A stretch of DNA of 64,000 bases from Microbacterium testaceum StLB037 (GTDB lineage Bacteria; Actinomycetota; Actinomycetes; Actinomycetales; Microbacteriaceae), in assembly GCF_000202635.1 (NCBI RefSeq), contig NC_015125.1:1302001-1366000 (forward strand). The letters are read 5' to 3'. The translations under genes were made by a program, and so were the position numbers. This document shows, one piece after another, positions 2,382 through 31,817 of this stretch (position 1 is its first letter; every line of letters starts with the position of its first letter). The notes beneath the pieces are model-generated. The model saw only the letters and a list, made by a program, of their open reading frames with translations, did not search any database and had not been told where the DNA came from.

Positions 2382-3085
<704 letters not shown>

Positions 3086-7367: not shown

Positions 7368-8296
7368 TGACGACCGCGATCCCCCTCACCGTGTCCGTTC
7401 CGACCGCCCGCCTCCGCGATGACCTCGGGACACTCCCCGACGGCGTCGAGGTGGTGATCTGGGACATGAAGGATGCCGCTCCGCGCGAGCGCTTCGACAT
7501 GGTCGTGCCGCCGTACATGTCGATGGACGGGGTGATCGAAGCCCTCTCGGGCGTCGAGGTCGGGCTCGTCCAGAGCCAGTCGATCGGCTACGACAACGTC
7601 GAGGGACGCCTGCCCGAGGGGCTCGTGTTCGCGAACGCCTCCAGCGTGCACGAGACGGCGACCGCGGAGCTCGCCGTCGCTCTCACGCTCGCCGCGCAGC
7701 GTCGGCTCCCCGACTTCGTCCGGGCCCAGGACCGCGGCGAGTGGACGGGCGGGGGCGCCGCGGGGCTCGCCGACCGACGCGTCACGCTCCTGGGCTTCGG
7801 TGGCGTCGGCCGCGCGATCGCCGCACGGCTGAAGCCCTTCGAGGTCGACCTCCGCGCCGTCGCTTCGCACGGACGCCTCCAGGACGAGGTCGAGGTGTTC
7901 CCGCTCGGCAAGCTCTCCGAGGTGCTCGCCGACACGGACATCCTCATCGCCTCGCTCCCCGGCGGCGACGCCACCCGGCACATCATCGACCACGCGGCGC
8001 TGTCGGCGCTTCCCGACGGCGCGCTCGTGGTCAACGTCGGCCGTGGCCCCCTCGTCGACACCGACGCCCTCGTCGACCACGTGCGACGCGGCCGCATCCG
8101 CACGGCGCTGGACGTGACCGACCCCGAACCCCTGCCCGCCGGCCACCCGCTGTGGAGCCTCGAGGGAGCCCTCGTCGTCCCGCACGTCGGAGGAGCGACG
8201 GATGCCATGCACCCCCGCATCGCGCGCCTCGTCCGCCGGCAGATCGACCGCCTCCGCGCCGGCGAGGAGCCGCTGAACGTGGTGATCGGCGGCTGA
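7367..8296 (+). CDS. D-isomer specific 2-hydroxyacid dehydrogenase
   Basis: NAD(P)-dependent reductase of 2-oxoacids, 309 residues. The NAD motif LLGFGGVGRAIAARL and the catalytic set are visible: Arg in NVGRGPLVDT, Glu in DVTDPEPLP and His in VVPHVGGATD. The ATG overlaps the preceding stop (TGATG), making it the last gene of a three-gene operon. Together these genes suggest breakdown of a hydroxy- or ureido-acid to a 2-oxoacid and then reversible reduction (inference). Confidence 0.9.
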   Translation: MTTAIPLTVSVPTARLRDDLGTLPDGVEVVIWDMKDAAPRERFDMVVPPYMSMDGVIEALSGVEVGLVQSQSIGYDNVEGRLPEGLVFANASSVHETATAELAVALTLAAQRRLPDFVRAQDRGEWTGGGAAGLADRRVTLLGFGGVGRAIAARLKPFEVDLRAVASHGRLQDEVEVFPLGKLSEVLADTDILIASLPGGDATRHIIDHAALSALPDGALVVNVGRGPLVDTDALVDHVRRGRIRTALDVTDPEPLPAGHPLWSLEGALVVPHVGGATDAMHPRIARLVRRQIDRLRAGEEPLNVVIGG

Positions 8297-17679: not shown

Positions 17680-18305
17680 CGACCATGGCTCCTGCGACGT
17701 CGGTCGATGACTCCCCCACCGGTGACGAAAGGCTCGGGGCGCGCGTGCGGGGACTCCGCAAGGCCCGCGGGCTCACCCTCACGCAGCTCGCGGAGGCCGC
17801 CGCGCTGTCGCACCCCTTCCTCAGCCAGCTCGAGCGCGGCCTCGCGCGGCCGAGCATGGCGAGCCTCGAACGTCTCGCGCGAGCCCTCGGCACGAGCCGG
17901 GTCGAGCTGATCGCGGCCTCGGAACCGCGCCGCGCCGACGCGGACGCGGAGCCGTCGTTCGTGCTCGCCGACGAGGGCGCGATCGGGCCGTACGCCGAGG
18001 GCACCGCGCGCCTGCTCGCGGACGGACCGCGACGGTTCGAGCCCCTCGAGTTCTCGGGGTCGAACGCCGAGGCGGGCGACCATTACGTGCACGAGGAGGA
18101 CGAGTTCCTCACCGTGCTCGAGGGGACGATCGTGATCTCGTTCGGACTCTTCGGCGAACGGCGGCTCTCGGTGGGCGACTCGGTCTACTGCCGCTCCGGC
18201 ACTCCGCACCGCTGGCACTCGCCGGACGGATCGCCGTACCGGCTGCTGATCGTCAAGGAACTCGTGCACGGCTCGGTGGACGACACACCCCAGGGAGACA
18301 CATGA
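17676..18305 (+). CDS. XRE-cupin transcriptional regulator
   Basis: 209 residues. An N-terminal helix-turn-helix (LGARVRGLRKARGLTLTQLA, then LSHPFLSQLERGLARPSMAS) is joined to a C-terminal cupin (HYVHEEDEFLTVLEGTIVIS and HRWHSPDGSPYRLLIVKEL). Regulators of this layout sense small catabolites or amines. It overlaps both neighbours by four bases, so it is translated with the operon it probably controls. Confidence 0.92.
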   Translation: MTTMAPATSVDDSPTGDERLGARVRGLRKARGLTLTQLAEAAALSHPFLSQLERGLARPSMASLERLARALGTSRVELIAASEPRRADADAEPSFVLADEGAIGPYAEGTARLLADGPRRFEPLEFSGSNAEAGDHYVHEEDEFLTVLEGTIVISFGLFGERRLSVGDSVYCRSGTPHRWHSPDGSPYRLLIVKELVHGSVDDTPQGDT

Positions 18306-19249
18306 GCGGGGGAATGACCTTCGACGCCATCGTGCGGGAGCGGCGGGAAGCCGCCGACGGCGTGGTGGTGCTCGACCTCGAGCGCGCGGGCGGCACGCTG
18401 CCGCACTGGTCGCCCGGCGCGCACATCGACGTCGTGCTGCCCGGAGGCATCGAGCGGCAGTACTCGCTGTGCGGGTCGCCGAGCGAGCGCGGCACGTGGC
18501 GCATCGGCGTGCTCCGCGAGCGCGAGGGCTCGGTCTGGCTGCACGACAACGCCCACGTCGGTGCGACGCTGCGGGTGCGCGGACCCGCCAACCACTTCCT
18601 CTTCGCCCCCACCGCGGGACGCTCGTACGTGTTCGTCGCGGGCGGCATCGGCATCACGCCGATCGTGCCGATGATCGAGGCGGCCGAGGCCGCGGGAGCG
18701 ACCTGGGCGCTGCTGTACGCGGGGCGCTCGCGGCGCACGATGGCCTTCGTCGATGAGCTGATCGAGCGCTACGGCGAGCGCGTCGAGGTCTTCGCGGCCG
18801 ACGAGGGCGACCGCCTCGATCTGTCTGCTCGCTTCGGCACACCGGTTTCCCGCACGGTCGTGTACTCGTGCGGCCCCGCGCGCCTGCTCGAAGCCCTGGA
18901 GGAGGCGATGTCGGGCTGGCCCCGAGGAAGCCTGCACCTCGAGCGCTTCGAGGCGAAGGTGCTGGGCCCGCCGGTGTGGTCCGAGCCGTTCGAGGTCGAC
19001 CTCATGATGTCGGGCCTGACCGTGACGGTCCCGCCCGAGCGCTCGATCCTCGATGTCGTCGAGGAGGCCGGCGCGGTCGTCCCCTCGAGCTGCCGCGTCG
19101 GCACCTGCGGCACGTGCGAGGTCGCGGTCATCGACGGCGAGGTCGAGCACCGCGACTCCGTGCTCTCGCCGGAGGAGCAGGATGCCAACCGCTCGATGAT
19201 GGTGTGCGTCTCGCGCGCGGCGTGCGGGCGGATCACGCTCGAGCTCTGA
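18302..19249 (+). CDS. Phthalate-dioxygenase-reductase-type oxidoreductase (FNR plus [2Fe-2S])
   Basis: Electron-transfer partner for a Rieske-type oxygenase or demethylase, 315 residues. Flavin-binding RQYSLCGSP (about 57), NAD-binding FVAGGIGITPIVPMIEAAE (about 110) and a C-terminal ferredoxin domain with CRVGTCGTC plus the fourth Cys in MMVCVSRA. The gene is full length even though the last 269 bp recur at 20769-21037. Its usual oxygenase partner is not beside it. ATG overlaps the regulator stop by four bases. Confidence 0.92.
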   Translation: MSGGMTFDAIVRERREAADGVVVLDLERAGGTLPHWSPGAHIDVVLPGGIERQYSLCGSPSERGTWRIGVLREREGSVWLHDNAHVGATLRVRGPANHFLFAPTAGRSYVFVAGGIGITPIVPMIEAAEAAGATWALLYAGRSRRTMAFVDELIERYGERVEVFAADEGDRLDLSARFGTPVSRTVVYSCGPARLLEALEEAMSGWPRGSLHLERFEAKVLGPPVWSEPFEVDLMMSGLTVTVPPERSILDVVEEAGAVVPSSCRVGTCGTCEVAVIDGEVEHRDSVLSPEEQDANRSMMVCVSRAACGRITLEL

Positions 19250-19251
19250 CG
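18983..19251 (+). repeat. Direct repeat, left copy (269 bp)
   Basis: Identical to 20769-21037. It covers the ferredoxin-domain end of the reductase gene, including its stop. Upstream of 18983 a further ~80 bp is similar but not identical to the other copy, with mostly synonymous differences. Confidence 0.95.
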
Positions 19252-20686
19252 GCAACGAACGACTTTCAACGTAACCGTAGTTCGCTAGGGGATAGTCGAG
19301 CGGGGTCCTTCGTCTGCGGCGAAGAGATTTACTCTGCGGGAGAAGGTTAGCCACCCGACGTAACGAGGCCACCTATTGCGGCACCAATTCCAGACCCGAT
19401 TACCGCAGCTGCAACTGTCGCGCCTACAACTCCGCGATGCTCCATTCGGGCAGACTTGTTCTCAATGGCGGAACGCGCGAAGCCAGTGTCAATGCTCGCT
19501 ACTCCCGCCTCATCGTCCTTGAGGTCACCGTCGAAGAGCTCCGGGGTAGCGAACTCCGAGGAGGCATCCTGATAATCGCGTCTGGCGTCGGCGACCATTC
19601 GCTGCAGTGACTCAATTGCCGCCATCTGCAGCCAAATCTCGGAGATGATCCTCCGCACAGGACGCCCGCGCCCCTTTCCCCGCATGAAGCTCCACACGTC
19701 CTGCAATGCGTGCCCAACTGTTCTCCAAGCACCGACATCAGCGCGCTCCACCGTAGCGTAGTCCATGAGAAGTAGCGTTGCTGTTTTGGAGCGGAGGGAC
19801 TGCTCGATGTTCAGGACGCGGCGCGATCCATTTTTGATGCGCGCGAAAGCGGCACCCGGACTGAAGACTTCACTACCGACAAGGACGGAAACCATTTCTG
19901 GCGCAATGTTTCCGCGGATTCGGACGTCCACCGGTTCCATGCCTACGGGCTTATCAAAGTCAATATCGAAATCGAGAGACGGGCCGGACCACACCGAAAC
20001 ACGCATGTCACGGTGGCCGAAGAGATGCTCGCACACCGGACTACACGCCTGAACGAGCAGCGTATGCCCCAGAGGTTCGAGCGCGTCTCGCAATATGTCA
20101 ACTACGACTTGCCCCGCAGCAGACGGCGCGTACCGGTCGCTTTCGGAGCGGCGCCAAGCCACGACGGCCGTCCAACCACCCCAGGTCGCTTCGTATTCAT
20201 CCGCGCGAGCGCCTTCACCGTGGATTCGCGGTTGATTTTTTGCAGGAACATGTACCGTGAACGCGATTGCTCCACCGAAGCGCCTCGCGTGTATGTGATC
20301 AGCGCCGCTGAGCAGGTGATCGTCTTCGCTTACTGAGATGGGGTAAAAGATCTGGTCTTCGTCCCAATAGTCATTTGGCGGCCCAGTTCGAACACTAGTC
20401 ACCCGACTGTCCTTTTTGAGGGCCGTCATTATGTCCTCGCGAGGCGTAGTGCTGTCCGACGAACCAAGACCCAGGACAAACGTGCCAAAGCGGGCCCACC
20501 ACATTTCCGAGGGAGGAGAGGACGACGCAGAGCGGAGAACATCGGACATTTTCTTTCCCCTGTACGTAGTTGATGCGTGGGTCGAAGATAGCGCGTCCGC
20601 GACCTGTCTGGCCCGACGAATACTGAGCCTTCGCGTGCGCACCTCAACGGGCGGATTCTGGCGGAGCCACTCCGACCGCGGCGCCG
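19252..20686. mobile_element. Lower-GC insert between duplicated reductase ends
   Basis: About 1.43 kb with clearly lower GC than its surroundings (31 of 60 bases in 19921-19980) and different codon use. It lies exactly between the two copies of the reductase 3' end and carries one minus-strand gene. No integrase, transposase or short terminal repeats are visible. The layout fits Campbell-type integration of a circular molecule carrying a reductase fragment, or capture by homologous recombination (inference). Confidence 0.7.
19347..20549 (-). CDS. Orphan 400-residue protein with C-terminal glycine-rich membrane segment
   Basis: I do not recognise the family. The ATG at 20549 is preceded by AGGGGAAAG. 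No signal peptide is seen. The first half is tryptophan- and acid-rich (DYWDEDQIFYPISVSEDD, TWGGWTAVVAWRRSESDRY) and looks globular; the middle is helical and basic (FMRGKGRGRPVRRII, LQMAAIESLQRMVADARRDY). The last ~25 residues form one hydrophobic, GxxxG-like segment (GVVGATVAAAVIGSGIGAAI). No nuclease, ATPase or kinase motif is present. As sole cargo of a recent insert with foreign composition it could be a defence or toxin-like effector acting on membranes, but that is speculation. Confidence 0.75.
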   Translation of the reverse strand: MSDVLRSASSSPPSEMWWARFGTFVLGLGSSDSTTPREDIMTALKKDSRVTSVRTGPPNDYWDEDQIFYPISVSEDDHLLSGADHIHARRFGGAIAFTVHVPAKNQPRIHGEGARADEYEATWGGWTAVVAWRRSESDRYAPSAAGQVVVDILRDALEPLGHTLLVQACSPVCEHLFGHRDMRVSVWSGPSLDFDIDFDKPVGMEPVDVRIRGNIAPEMVSVLVGSEVFSPGAAFARIKNGSRRVLNIEQSLRSKTATLLLMDYATVERADVGAWRTVGHALQDVWSFMRGKGRGRPVRRIISEIWLQMAAIESLQRMVADARRDYQDASSEFATPELFDGDLKDDEAGVASIDTGFARSAIENKSARMEHRGVVGATVAAAVIGSGIGAAIGGLVTSGG

Positions 20687-20693
20687 CCCGGCG

Positions 20694-21035
20694 ATGGCCG
20701 GATGGCCGCGCGGAAGCCTGCACCTCGAGCGCTTCGAGGCGAAGGTGCTCGGCCCTCCGGTCTGGACGGAGCCGTTCGAGGTCGACCTCATGATGTCGGG
20801 CCTGACCGTGACGGTCCCGCCCGAGCGCTCGATCCTCGATGTCGTCGAGGAGGCCGGCGCGGTCGTCCCCTCGAGCTGCCGCGTCGGCACCTGCGGCACG
20901 TGCGAGGTCGCGGTCATCGACGGCGAGGTCGAGCACCGCGACTCCGTGCTCTCGCCGGAGGAGCAGGATGCCAACCGCTCGATGATGGTGTGCGTCTCGC
21001 GCGCGGCGTGCGGGCGGATCACGCTCGAGCTCTGA
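20694..21035 (+). pseudogene. Duplicated C-terminal (ferredoxin) fragment of the reductase
   Basis: Encodes 113 residues matching the last third of the reductase, from AGWPRGSLHLERFEAK to the same stop. The [2Fe-2S] motif CRVGTCGTC is intact, so if translated from ATG 20694 it would be a stand-alone plant-type ferredoxin. The first ~75 bases differ from the full gene mainly at silent positions, as expected for an allele from a related strain; from 20769 it is identical. Most likely a remnant made by the insertion. Confidence 0.85.
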
Positions 21036-21037
21036 CG
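20769..21037 (+). repeat. Direct repeat, right copy (269 bp)
   Basis: Perfect match to 18983-19251. The following sequence contains a strong hairpin (21053-21139) that is likely the native terminator of the reductase operon, suggesting that this side keeps the original downstream flank. Confidence 0.95.
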
Positions 21038-21052
21038 CGAGCGGCGGCCCTG

Positions 21053-21139
21053 CCGTCACCGGAACAGGGGATGCCACCGAAACAGGCCGGCCCTTCGCAC
21101 GACGGCCTGTTTCGGTCGCATCCCCTGTTCTCGTGACGG
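21053..21139. terminator. Very long inverted repeat after the reductase fragment
   Basis: 28 bases at 21062-21089 pair with 21103-21130 with a single mismatch (arms begin GAACAGGGGATG and end CATCCCCTGTTC); CCGTCAC and GTGACGG extend the stem at both ends. The loop is 13 bases. No T-tract. It is either a strong terminator or a palindromic repeat element. The rest of the 304-base gap up to 21341 shows only the GGAGG ribosome site of the next gene. Confidence 0.75.
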
Positions 21140-21340
21140 TGCGCGGCGGTGCCCGCGGAGCGCCGCGAAAGGTTTGTCACGAGGGTCACGCCGAGGAAAT
21201 ACAGCGGAAACGCGCGGTTCCTAGCATCGGAACATCGCCGGATGTTGGTCACACCAACACTGGCCGGCCGCCCCCGGCGACCCGCCCCGATGCCGTGGCT
21301 CCCGTCTCGACGACCGTCTACCCGACTCCTCGGAGGCTCC

Positions 21341-22606
21341 GTGTCTGCCGCTCCACCCGTCTCCCTCGCCGCGCTCCGCGGTGCGCGCCTGCCCTCGGGC
21401 GCGCTCGTCGACATCGCGCTCGACGGCGACGAGGTGCTCGCGGTGGTTCCGGCCGGAAGCCCCCTCCCCGACACCGACGGCGAGACGCTCGACCTCTCCG
21501 GCTACCTCGTGACCGCGGCCGGGGCCGAGCCGCACGCGCACCTCGACAAGGCCCTCTCGTGGGATGCCATCCAACCCCCGTTCGGCGACCTCGAGCGCGC
21601 GATCGAGAGCTGGCACGCCTTCGCCGTCACGCTCGACGAGGACGAGACGCTCGGGCGCGCACGGGCCACGGCGCTGCGGATGCTGGCATCCGGGATCACG
21701 TCCGTGCGCACGCACGTCGACCTCCTGCGCGGCGACGACCCGCTCACGGGCGTGCGGGCGATGCTCCGCCTGCGCGACGAGCTTGAGGGCCTCATGGACA
21801 TCGAGCTCGTCGCGCTCGGCGGGCCCACCATCACCGACGACGTCTTCGAGGCCGCGCTCGACGCAGGCGTCGACCTCGTCGGCGGGGCACCGCACCTCGC
21901 CGACGACCCGATCGCCGACCTCGAGCGCCTCCTCGCGATCGCCCGCCGCCGCGACGTCGGTCTCGACCTGCACACCGACGAGAGCCTCGCCGGGGCCGAC
22001 ACCCTCGCGACCTACGCTCGCGCGGTCACCGGCTGGCACCGCCCCCGCAGCGCGGGCCACTGCGTGCGTCTCAGCATGATGCCCGCCGCCGACCTCGCCG
22101 AGCTGGCCGATGAGATCCGCGCCGCCGACATCGGCGTGATCGCCCTGCCCATCACCAACCTGTACCTGCAGGGATGGGATGCCGAGCACGCCGTGCCCCG
22201 CGGCATCGCGCCGATCGGCCGCCTCAAGGCCGCCGGTGTCCGCGTCGCCGCGGGAGCCGACAACGTCCGCGACCCCTTCAATCCCGTCGGGCGCTGCGAC
22301 CACCTCGAGACGGCGTCGCTCCTCGTCTCGGCGGGGCACCTCGCCCCGACGGAGGCGATGGATGCCGTGACCGTCGGCGCGCGCGACGTGATGGGGCTGC
22401 CCGTCGCCGGTCCCGTGCCGGGTGCCCGCGCCGATCTCGTCGCGATCCGCGCCGACTCGCTCGGCGAGGCCGTGGCTTTCGCGTCCGCTGATCGCGTCGT
22501 CATCCACCGCGGTCGCCTGGTCAGCCGCACCACCGTCTCGACCGAGACGGCGACTCCCCGCCCCACCGAATCCGCCCGCGCCGCCGCACCCGCGACGACT
22601 CCCTGA
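21341..22606 (+). CDS. CodA-like amidohydrolase (cytosine/creatinine deaminase family)
   Basis: 421 residues, metal-dependent deaminase or amide hydrolase. The full CodA-type site is visible: HAHLDK (first two His), DLHTDE (His and catalytic Glu), GHCVRLS (His) and GADNVRDPFNP (Asp). Similar proteins act on cytosine, creatinine, isoguanine or N-alkylammelides. GTG 21341 is chosen for the CGGAGG eight bases upstream. First gene of a run with an ABC importer, an FAD oxidase and a creatininase-family enzyme, so it likely handles an imported nitrogen heterocycle. Confidence 0.82.
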   Translation: MSAAPPVSLAALRGARLPSGALVDIALDGDEVLAVVPAGSPLPDTDGETLDLSGYLVTAAGAEPHAHLDKALSWDAIQPPFGDLERAIESWHAFAVTLDEDETLGRARATALRMLASGITSVRTHVDLLRGDDPLTGVRAMLRLRDELEGLMDIELVALGGPTITDDVFEAALDAGVDLVGGAPHLADDPIADLERLLAIARRRDVGLDLHTDESLAGADTLATYARAVTGWHRPRSAGHCVRLSMMPAADLAELADEIRAADIGVIALPITNLYLQGWDAEHAVPRGIAPIGRLKAAGVRVAAGADNVRDPFNPVGRCDHLETASLLVSAGHLAPTEAMDAVTVGARDVMGLPVAGPVPGARADLVAIRADSLGEAVAFASADRVVIHRGRLVSRTTVSTETATPRPTESARAAAPATTP

Positions 22607-22631
22607 ACCCGACCGGAAAGTGAGCGCTCCC

Positions 22632-23404
<773 letters not shown>

Positions 23405-23408
<4 letters not shown>

Positions 23409-24295
23409 GCACCACGTCTGCAGAGCCGGTCGTCTCCCTGTCGCCCGAGCCCACGGCATCCACTCCTCCGCCCACTCCGCCGAAGCCGCGCACGCCCGCG
23501 CGTCGCCGCGGCTTCGGGGCACGCGCCGCATCGATCCTTCCGCCGCTCGGCGTCCTGATCGTGCTGCTCGGCGCCTGGTACGGGGTGTCGATCGCGCTGA
23601 GCGCCTCGGGCAAGGGCTTCCTCATGCCCATGCCCCACGAGATGTTCACGCAGGGCTTCTTCAACCCGCAGGTCGGCTCCGACATCTGGATCGCCCTGTT
23701 CCGCACCACGGGCGTCGCCCTCACCGGCCTCGCCATCGCGATGGTGATCGGCATCGGCTGGGCCATCGCGATGTCGCTGGCCCGCTGGGTCGAGCGATCG
23801 ACGTACGCGTACGCCGTGATGCTCCAGTGCATCCCGATCCTCGCCCTGGTCCCGCTCGTCGGGTTCTGGTTCGGCTACGAGTTCCTCGCCCGCGTGATCG
23901 TCTGCGTCCTGATCGCGCTGTTCCCGATGGTCTCGAACACCCTGTTCGGCCTGCAGTCGGTCGACAAGTCGCAGCGCGAGCTCTTCCGTCTGCAGAAGGC
24001 CGACAAGTGGACGGTGCTCACCAAGCTCACCCTCCCCGCGGCCCTCCCGTCGATCTTCGTCGGCATGCGGACCTCGGCCGGGCTCTCGGTCATCGGCGCG
24101 ATCGTCGGCGACTACTTCTTCCGCCGCGGCGAGCCGGGCATCGGCTCGCTCATCTCCAACTACCAGTCGCGCCTGCAGAGCGCCGAGCTGTTCGCCGCCA
24201 TCCTCGCGGCCTGCCTCCTCGGCGTGGCGATCTTCGCCTTCTTCGGCTGGCTGTCGAAGGTGGCCGTCGGCCGCTGGTACGACAGCACGCGCTGA
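23405..24295 (+). CDS. ABC transporter permease, SsuC/ThiX type
   Basis: 296 residues. A proline-rich cytoplasmic tail (1-40) precedes about six membrane segments. The EAA loop is recognisable around LFGLQSVDKSQRELFRLQKA, followed by WTVLTKLTLPAALPSIFVGM, typical of the nitrate/sulfonate/taurine permeases. Coupled to the ATPase by a four-base overlap; the binder gene follows after 134 bases. Confidence 0.92.
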
Positions 24296-24429
24296 CCCAG
24301 ACCCCCGGATGCCACGGCCTCCCCGCCGCATCGCGCGCGAGGAGGCGGCATCCGGCGTACCCGAAACACCCCTGCACCTGCTCCACCTTCCGCACCCGAG
24401 CTCCATCACGTCACAGAAAGCGACCCAGC

Positions 24430-25608
24430 ATGCAGCGCTCCACTCTCCTTCGCGCCACCGCCGCCACCGGTGCCTTCGCGATCGCCCTCACGCTCACCTC
24501 GTGCGCGGGAAGCGCCGCGGACCAGGCGGCGCCGGCGACCGACATGCCGATCGGCTCGGTCGACCTCTCGGCCGACTGCCCCTCGACGATCGTCGTCCAG
24601 ACCGACTGGAACCCCGAGGCCGAACACGGTCACCTCTACGAGATGATCAAGGACGACTACACGATCGACGCCAACACCAAGGCGGTCACCGGTCCCCTCA
24701 TGGCGGACGGTGAATACACCGGCGTGAACCTCGAGATCCGCGCCGGTGGCCCCGCCATCGGCTTCCAGACCGTGTCGGCGCAGATGTACCAGGACGACAA
24801 GATCACCCTCGGCTACGTCAGCACGGATGAGGCGATCCAGCTCTCGGCCACCACGCCCACCAAGGCCGTGTTCGCTCCGCTCGACATCAGCCCGACCATG
24901 GTCATGTGGGACCCCGCGACCTACCCCGACGTGAAGACCATCCAGGACGTCGCCCCCGCGCTGGAGAAGAACGGCGGCGTGTGGCGCTACTTCGACGGCT
25001 CGGCGTACATCGAGTACCTGAAGAGCGCGGGCCTCGCGAACAGCTCGATCCTCGACGGCTCCTACGACGGCACCCCGTCGAACTTCGTCGCCGCAGGCGG
25101 CAAGGACATGCAGCAGGGCTTCGCCTCCGCTGAGCCGTACGTCTACCAGAACGAGGTCTCGGCTTGGGGCAAGCCGGTCAAGTTCGCCCTCATCCACGAC
25201 GCGGGATGGCAGACCTACCAGTCGTCGATGTCCGTGAAGAAGGACAAATTCGACGAGCTGTCGCCCTGCCTGTCGAAGCTCGTCCCCGTGCTGCAGAAGG
25301 CGGGCGTGGCGTACTACAAGGACCCGAAGGCGGCGAACGACCTGATCCTCAAGCTGGTCGACGAGTACGCCACCGGCTGGACCTACACCCAGGGCGTCGC
25401 GGACTATTCGGTCAAGACGCAGGTCGACCTCGGCCTCGTCGGCGACGGCCCCGACTCCACCTACGGCAACTTCGACGACACCCGCTTCTCGGACTTCTAC
25501 ACGAAGGCGGCCAAGGTCTACACCGACCTGGGCACCCCGCCGGCGTCGGGGGAGACCGCGAAGGACCTGTACACGAACGAGTTCATCGACACCTCGATCT
25601 CGTTCTGA
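24430..25608 (+). CDS. Substrate-binding lipoprotein, NMT1/THI5-like
   Basis: 392 residues with signal peptide and lipobox (LTLTSCAG). The segment IVVQTDWNPEAEHGHLYEMI and later VQAGGP-like NLEIRAGGPAIGFQTVSAQM resemble binders for pyrimidine precursors, riboflavin-like or sulfonate ligands; FASAEPYVYQNEVSAWGKPV is the usual hinge region. It completes the importer begun at 22632. Ligand unknown; the neighbours suggest a nitrogen heterocycle. Confidence 0.88.
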   Translation: MQRSTLLRATAATGAFAIALTLTSCAGSAADQAAPATDMPIGSVDLSADCPSTIVVQTDWNPEAEHGHLYEMIKDDYTIDANTKAVTGPLMADGEYTGVNLEIRAGGPAIGFQTVSAQMYQDDKITLGYVSTDEAIQLSATTPTKAVFAPLDISPTMVMWDPATYPDVKTIQDVAPALEKNGGVWRYFDGSAYIEYLKSAGLANSSILDGSYDGTPSNFVAAGGKDMQQGFASAEPYVYQNEVSAWGKPVKFALIHDAGWQTYQSSMSVKKDKFDELSPCLSKLVPVLQKAGVAYYKDPKAANDLILKLVDEYATGWTYTQGVADYSVKTQVDLGLVGDGPDSTYGNFDDTRFSDFYTKAAKVYTDLGTPPASGETAKDLYTNEFIDTSISF

Positions 25609-25649
25609 CCGCCTCGGCCCGGTCCGCCTCGCGCGGGCCGGGCCGCGCC

Positions 25650-25910
25650 GGTGGCTTCGACAGGCTCAGCCACCTCCTCGCGGCCCAGGTCCCTGAGCCC
25701 GAACCGAGATCCCCGAGCCCGAACCCAGGTCCCTGAGCCTGTCGAAGGGGCCGGAACCCGCCGCACGGCCGCAGCTCGGGTCCCTGACCGAACCGAGATC
25801 CCTGACCGAACCGAGGTCCCTGAGCCTGTCGAAGGGACCGGAACCCGCCGCACGGCCGCAGCCGAGATCCCTGAGCCCGAACCCAGGTCCCTGAGCCTGT
25901 CGAAGGGACC
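25650..25910. repeat. Palindromic repeat array A
   Basis: Fills most of the 343-base gap between binder and oxidase genes. Clear hairpins: 25650-25674 (GGTGGC...GCCACC), 25728-25752, 25815-25839 and 25886-25910 (GGTCCC...GGGACC), all with loop TCGACAGGCTC or its complement. Truncated copies (GGTCCCTGAGCCCGAACC) lie between. Two of the hairpins are followed by the same CGGAACCCGCCGCACGGCCG spacer, so local tandem duplication occurred. Confidence 0.9.
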
Positions 25911-25951
25911 GGAACCCCCTCCCCGCAACCCGTTCCACCCGGAGAACCACC

Positions 25952-29698: not shown

Positions 29699-29707
29699 CG
29701 GCGGGGC

Positions 29708-29884
29708 GGAGGCTTCGACACGCTCAGCCACCGCGCACGGCCCGGGCCCCCTGCCGCCGCCGAGGTCCCTGAGCCCGTCGAAGGGACCGCACCCCAGCCA
29801 CCGCGCACAGCCCAGGTCCCTGAGCCCGTCGAAGCGACCGCACCCCGCAGCCGCGCGAGGAGGCTTCGACACGCTCAGCCACCT
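29708..29884. repeat. Palindromic repeat array B
   Basis: Four units: 29708-29731 and 29859-29883 (CTTCGACACGCTCAGCCAC type) and 29764-29788 and 29815-29839 (GGTCCCTGAGCCCGTCGAAG type). Same loop family as the other arrays with a C/G change in the loop. Lies between convergent genes and may act as a terminator for both. Confidence 0.85.
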
Positions 29885-29908
29885 CTGCCGTTCGGCCGGG
29901 CGTGCGCG

Positions 29909-31592: not shown

Positions 31593-31618
31593 CGCACTCC
31601 GCCGCCGCGCGCTCGCCC

Positions 31619-31774
31619 GGTGGCTTCGACAGGCTCAGCCACCTGCGCCGCGCGCTCGCCCGGACGCTTCGACAGGCTCAGCGACCTCCGCGGGGCGCTC
31701 GCCCGGTGGCTTCGACAGGCTCAGCCACCTCCGCCACGCGCGCGAGCGAGGTCCCTGAGCCTGTCGAAGGGACC
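31619..31774. repeat. Palindromic repeat array C
   Basis: Three units in exact 43-base steps (31619, 31662, 31705), each preceded by GCTCGCCCGG, then one GGTCCC...GGGACC unit at 31750-31774. The middle unit has mutated stems (GACGCTTC...CAGCGAC). The even step shows tandem duplication of unit plus spacer. Confidence 0.9.
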
Positions 31775-31817
31775 GGACCCGCGCGGCGACGAACGTGCGA
31801 CCCGTAGCGTGGTCTTC

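Follow-up and report, generated by a model that had tools for sequence, protein, structure and literature searches.

In gene-regenerating tRNA islands, one end is recognised by a regenerated target gene and the other by a displaced fragment, as described in PMC4383910, and prophage e14 is reported to insert within icd while the function of this gene remains unchanged (PMC4632033). Duplicated gene ends have also been recovered after E. coli conjugation: 56 of 60 clones gave a PCR product diagnostic of a lacZ-end duplication, and the 14 sequenced clones carried duplications of 109-950 bp, for which the authors invoke single crossovers of circles whose homologous end is shortened (PMC3240628). 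At many variable chromosomal spots, foreign genes are present without a visible mobile element. Here we describe a lone low-GC gene, gene A, within 64,000 nucleotides of Microbacterium testaceum StLB037 (NC_015125.1, positions 1,302,001 to 1,366,000; hereafter the window, to which coordinates refer unless a locus is named). It lies between a complete reductase gene and a second copy of the reductase 3' end, in DNA of foreign composition; a relative carries the corresponding empty site, and the same architecture recurs at another gene in a second genome.

A foreign gene between two reductase ends

The target gene (18302-19249, plus strand) encodes an intact ferredoxin/flavin reductase of 315 aa with Fer2 (PF00111) and NAD_binding_1 domains, and occupies the same place in relatives. 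Behind it lies an insert of 1,438 bp (19252-20689) with a GC content of 59.3%, compared with 70.8% for the window. None of 299 other window stretches of this length, taken every 200 bp, reaches so low a value (minimum 0.637), and the insert is thus foreign in composition. It is followed by a partial reductase 3' end (20690-21037, plus strand), whose homology starts sharply at 20690; upstream of this point, a blastn search of 20550-20720 against the relatives' alleles gave short chance matches only. The two copies, 18904-19251 and 20690-21037, are offset by 1,786 bp. They are identical over exactly 269 bp (18983-19251 and 20769-21037), a run that stops 2 bases past the stop codon, whereas 10 of the 79 bases upstream of it (18904-18982 in the left copy) differ, with third codon positions accounting for 8 of the 10. 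This diverged part includes an identical block of 38 bp (18926-18963) close to where homology begins. Elsewhere in the genome, a single contig of 3,982,034 bases, the next-best match to the reductase reaches 71% over about 200 bp among the 40 of 506 candidates that were scored. The right copy contains an open frame of 113 aa (20694-21035, plus strand) with an in-frame ATG, which spans the ferredoxin domain and could yield a stand-alone ferredoxin if expressed.

Gene A (19347-20549, minus strand) is the sole long gene of the insert and encodes an uncharacterised protein of 400 aa. It matches no family of Pfam, NCBIfam or PADLOC (2023) at E <= 1, and for this reason no integrase is recognised in the window unit. 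The predicted model (pLDDT 82.6) combines an N-terminal alpha/beta part and long helices with a hydrophobic, glycine-rich helix at the C-terminus that is poorly predicted; a fold search with it gave no reliable match, and a CorA-like membrane protein is at most a candidate reading. Protein searches with A and with an alignment query each returned 14 entries, the window's own included. Judged by these searches, A is a family of proteins of about 400 aa without a family match; C169, C173 and H179 are invariant. A was found in 3 of 366 genomes of the genus, of which only the window genome has it behind the reductase, the other two carrying it elsewhere. It was found in 4 of 398 genomes of the family (the window genome, G485, G489 and G750), and in 2 of 396 genomes of the order and, when the family was sampled again, in 2 of 249, neither of which added new loci. 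Searches of phages and plasmids (tblastn) and of viral contigs found no A; in genome contigs, the single query found none and the alignment query three loci.

What does the site look like in other strains? A search of 295 genus genomes with the reductase gave some match in 268, and 30 loci were compared with extra flank (the 29 best and one split locus, G170). In G280 (L039), a single reductase end leads straight into a hairpin. Window positions 20690-25701 align to G280 in one piece at 92.9% identity, hairpin included, and no host DNA is missing in the window relative to G280. Five of the 30 loci are empty, with one alignment and 113-145 bp from the reductase to the compared point (L039, L052, L057, L058 and L064). 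The gap behind the reductase measures 37-286 bp in 4 loci and 0.68-6.0 kb in 17, and the remaining 4 lie on contigs that stop before it is crossed. In loci that matched both window copies, the two fell on a single reductase end. The insert sequence had no blastn match in the 30 loci, and no convincing second 3' end was found there. Five loci (L040, L045, L047, L061 and L067) did score more than 1.25 times the best of seven nulls, and 16 more slightly above it, but all scores were at most 74, and we take these long, weak and often distant matches as coding-sequence noise. The initial annotation of this locus had anticipated the empty site with its hairpin, and its description of a lower-GC segment between two reductase 3' ends, an intact gene on the left, 269 bp of identity and about 80 preceding bp that differ mostly at silent sites agrees with what we find.

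The hairpin itself (21053-21139) comprises 87 nt with arms that are 92% complementary, and lies 3' of the reductase at the empty site; the predicted RNA fold of 21040-21150 has -80.5 kcal/mol (z -8.5). It belongs to a family of imperfect palindromes, present in both orientations at about 17 chromosomal places (E <= 0.01), which we read as a REP-like element or a shared terminator. In G235 (L041), a 4.7-kb insert behind the reductase has hairpin sequence on both flanks (approximately 2966-3052 and 7772-7849). Short related repeats also occur in the window at 25648-25928, 29705-29890 and 31614-31784, and are matched in the relatives' loci too.

Gene A at other loci

A second case is found in Microbacterium sp. 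1.5R (G286, locus L071), where a homologue of A with 57% identity stands by itself, likewise low in GC, with a DUF885 gene and a luciferase-like gene as its neighbours. The unit measures 1,542 bp, and A is its only long gene. The DUF885 gene is intact on one side of A and a copy of its 3' end lies on the other, detected as a local match of 141 bp (score 104; the null reached at most 51 over 42 comparisons); the two ends are identical at 99 of 150 positions (66%). A DUF885 query matched in 19 of 20 genomes, namely G286 itself, 12 of the same genus (L093-L104), which were compared, and six of other families, which were left out. All 12 same-genus loci are empty sites, and in each of them the sequences that flank A on either side match one and the same DUF885 end (over 140 bp in L093). 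The last ~130 bp of the intact gene are foreign (GC 0.58 versus 0.67), and the native end has been displaced behind A: the leftover copy is nearer to the relatives' DUF885 in 12 of 12 loci, if narrowly in two (67 versus 68 and 80 versus 83 of 124 bases). One marker base, a host-like T on the left and C on the right (T, A and T in three relatives), suggests that the exchange occurred inside a 12-bp block, CAGCGCATCTGG, at the very start of the 150-bp region. L071 is a regenerated gene with a displaced fragment, and follows in this the principle of tRNA islands.

At L071 the end of the intact gene is foreign and the native end was displaced behind A, and the right copy of the window, 20690-21037, is therefore best read as an end displaced by exchange. 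The 3' end of the intact window reductase (18302-19249) may be the one supplied by the element.

A third lone A-like gene (L118:9264-10752 in G489; 27% identity) sits right behind a gene that we take to be NYN-like, and L122 has the empty site; here, a duplicated 3' end of the preceding gene is not detectable. At L072, L090, L117 and L119, A adjoins a REP_ORF2-G2P Rep gene and a serine recombinase gene (assigned by Pfam for L072, L090 and the Rep of L117, read as L091, and otherwise by tblastn). In L117, neither A nor the recombinase lies in a single frame. One end of these elements is formed by a DUF222 gene in L072 and L090 (Pfam) and, by resemblance only, in L119. Neither duplicated DUF222 ends next to A (L072, L090, L117 and L119) nor a duplicated 3' end beyond the recombinase (L072, L090 and L119) rose above the null, and our literature search found no paper on a serine recombinase with DUF222. 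Duplicated ends thus accompany two of the three lone-A loci and none of the four recombinase-element A loci.

Rep loci were found four times, in 3 of 227 genus genomes, and none in viral contigs. In L135, L136 and L137, Rep and recombinase are associated with other low-GC cargo instead of A, and in L138 the contig ends at Rep. The cargo of L136 is a pair that matches AbiLi (8.3e-46) and PDC-M38B (6.5e-8), that of L137 includes a protein with DUF4062, and that of L135 is three proteins that match nothing. A thus behaves as cargo that takes the place of other cargo in Rep and serine-recombinase elements. By association, because one such element carries an AbiLi-like pair in its stead, A is plausibly a defence gene, perhaps against phage. 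The window unit itself has no Rep or recombinase next to its cargo, its insert holding only A, and Rep has no match in the window genome at E <= 1e-15.

Possible routes of integration

How might gene A have entered without breaking the reductase? We think it probable, if far from certain, that a small circle integrated through one reciprocal exchange in the reductase 3' region and that the reductase was thereby kept complete. We envision a circle of about 1.8 kb, composed of gene A and a reductase fragment from a related bacterium, that would have undergone a single reciprocal exchange with the chromosome inside this region. From left to right, the product would consist of a complete reductase, gene A and a leftover of the other 3' end, and the host would have lost no DNA. 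In favour of this are the host sequence that continues across the site in G280, the recurrence at L071, the E. coli conjugation circles as an experimental precedent, and the role of A as cargo. The 269 bp might have been homogenised later by gene conversion, or the donor might already have been identical there. Gene A would be passenger DNA, which probably provides a one-gene phage defence.

This explanation has its difficulties. Where two alleles differ at 10 of 79 sites, a single crossover between them should not produce a run of 269 identical bp: a pure crossover should place the donor 3' end to the left of the insert and the native end to its right, and the identity hence requires gene conversion or an identical donor. 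Among 435 pairs formed by 29 full-length relatives' alleles and the host's (the partial allele L067 was dropped), 196 have 8-12 differences within the same 79 bases; across the 267 coding bases, each of these pairs has at least 6 (median 38), so that identity across all 267 is unexpected of a foreign allele. The identity may thus stem either from homogenisation after integration, or from a circle of an identical strain, or from a linear molecule captured on two sister chromosomes. Moreover, A and its target gene are read in opposite directions in the window but in one direction in L071, neither L118 nor the recombinase-element A loci have a detected end copy, and the 30 reductase loci of relatives show no convincing one. 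The proposal of the initial annotation that a circle integrated by single crossover therefore survives in its geometry, which recurs at another gene, but such a crossover cannot alone give the 269-bp identity. It took the second copy to be a foreign allele. Every right-copy base at the ten differing sites is also present in at least one of the 30 relatives' alleles. At L071, however, it is the intact gene that bears the foreign end while the leftover is native-like; in the window, the relatives' bases at the remaining sites do not discriminate which copy is native, and the last 269 bp are identical. The absence of a visible integrase, which it had also pointed out, holds for the unit but does not show that none acted, as tyrosine recombinases are encoded elsewhere in the genome.

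Which enzyme could have catalysed the exchange? RecA would suffice for 269 bp of identity. At L071, the 66% identity and the 12-bp block point rather to a short-site recombinase. It is conceivable, though on balance doubtful, that integration was site-specific in both cases, which amounts to a sub-case of the circle explanation with the enzyme named: the attachment site of the A-unit would hold the target 3' end, a tyrosine recombinase encoded elsewhere would act on a short core, as for tRNA-gene islands or prophage e14 at icd, and the window ends would have been homogenised later. The 12-bp block of L071 opens a region of only 99/150 identity, poor ground for RecA, and the 38-bp block could be the core in the window. 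The window genome has five tyrosine-recombinase matches (four over the cut-off) and G286 has four (all over it); three of those in the window genome, located elsewhere, cover most of the domain, and some of both genomes may be XerC/XerD. The same genome also harbours an island at tRNA-Phe whose 126-bp repeats are 94% identical; a scan of six of its genes recognised no site-specific integrase. On the other hand, a core common to the window and L071 was not seen by eye, the orientation of A relative to the target is not fixed, and a recombinase is recognised in neither unit. In a 1.264-Mb sample of the genome (about a third), DNA with less than 0.61 GC lies within 2 of 21 direct-repeat rows, namely those of the window insert and the tRNA-Phe island. 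The latter (L191:993-8555) comprises 7.4 kb of low GC with defence-like genes; its products include an IS481-type transposase, a DNA methylase, a protein resembling DndB/DpdB and one whose N-terminal domain is ApeA (Pfam 5.5e-11), the last without a match in PADLOC.

The identity of the two 269-bp copies and its end 2 bp past the stop codon would be explained directly by homology-facilitated illegitimate recombination, in which a linear donor pairs by homology at the reductase end, is end-joined past the stop codon and, involving two sister chromosomes, leaves 269 bp duplicated. PMC3240628 describes such events for bacteria with natural competence and, as a rare outcome, for E. coli conjugation; they have also been invoked for Vibrio immunity arrays (PMC5361080). 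We nevertheless consider this route improbable, because, according to PMC3240628, a deletion of about 1 kb in the host generally accompanies it, while no loss is seen here relative to G280, and because it misfits L071, where the foreign end sits on the intact gene. Equally improbable in our view is a turnover of the locus as a hotspot, whereby donor DNA already built in this way replaced the region by double homologous recombination in flanking genes. The variable gap behind the reductase across the 30 loci is in line with it, and many hotspots without integrases that recombine at flanking genes are described in PMC5635113; but it shifts the origin of the duplication to the donor and leaves it unexplained, and A occurs in so few genus genomes, elsewhere at other sites. 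An assembly artefact at the repeat is hardly credible, given ten differences between the copies, a chromosome in a single contig and the same architecture in the independent assembly of L071.

Returning to the circle explanation, the two cases are a pattern worth testing rather than a proven class. It would go further to regard A-units as a class of minimal mobile units, each with one defence gene and a spare host 3' end, which lack an enzyme, borrow a recombinase of the cell or of other elements and regenerate the host gene, their cargo also travelling in Rep and serine-recombinase elements and thus swapping vehicles. We consider this generalisation rather unlikely.

Relation to known systems

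Two members of the A family at different host genes, both with duplicated ends, outline a testable route by which a circle brings a replacement end and the target survives. Single genes may in this way enter chromosomes without breaking the gene in which they land, and the route would tie single-gene defence cargo to integration without a resident integrase. It also suggests a search rule for all genomes: one low-GC gene that has a regenerated protein gene on one side and a displaced 3' fragment on the other.

How do the A-units compare with described systems? As far as PMC5361080 describes them, Rhs and T6SS effector loci are similar in that a new module comes in and the old end or old immunity gene is left downstream; here, by contrast, the reductase and DUF885 targets both encode proteins with ends kept in frame, and a toxin-immunity pair is absent. 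The actinobacterial REP_ORF2-G2P Rep and serine recombinase elements (L072, L090, L117, L119 and L135-L137) likewise carry A or other low-GC cargo, but several lie beside DUF222 genes, and a regenerated 3' end was not detected in those tested. The loss of recipient DNA that is general, if not universal, in homology-facilitated illegitimate recombination is absent from the window in the comparison with G280. The circles of E. coli conjugation resemble the window in that a gene end is duplicated (109-950 bp in the 14 clones) without an integrase; those experiments used a laboratory plasmid with a lacZ end (PMC3240628), whereas the DNA here is natural and the L071 copies are only 66% identical.

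The A-units differ from typical gene-regenerating islands in that they span only 1.5-1.8 kb with one gene, that their protein-coding targets differ between the two cases, and that A is found in either orientation. An integrase of their own is recognised neither in the window unit nor in that of L071. A regenerated end that came with the element and is unlike the native end is seen in L071; in the window, the last 269 bp are identical and the remaining sites do not discriminate between the copies. What the window and L071 have in common with these islands is a complete target gene, a displaced fragment at the ends and an empty site in relatives. Both units fall under the gene-regenerating islands, as unusually small ones without a recognised integrase that have left their target genes complete.
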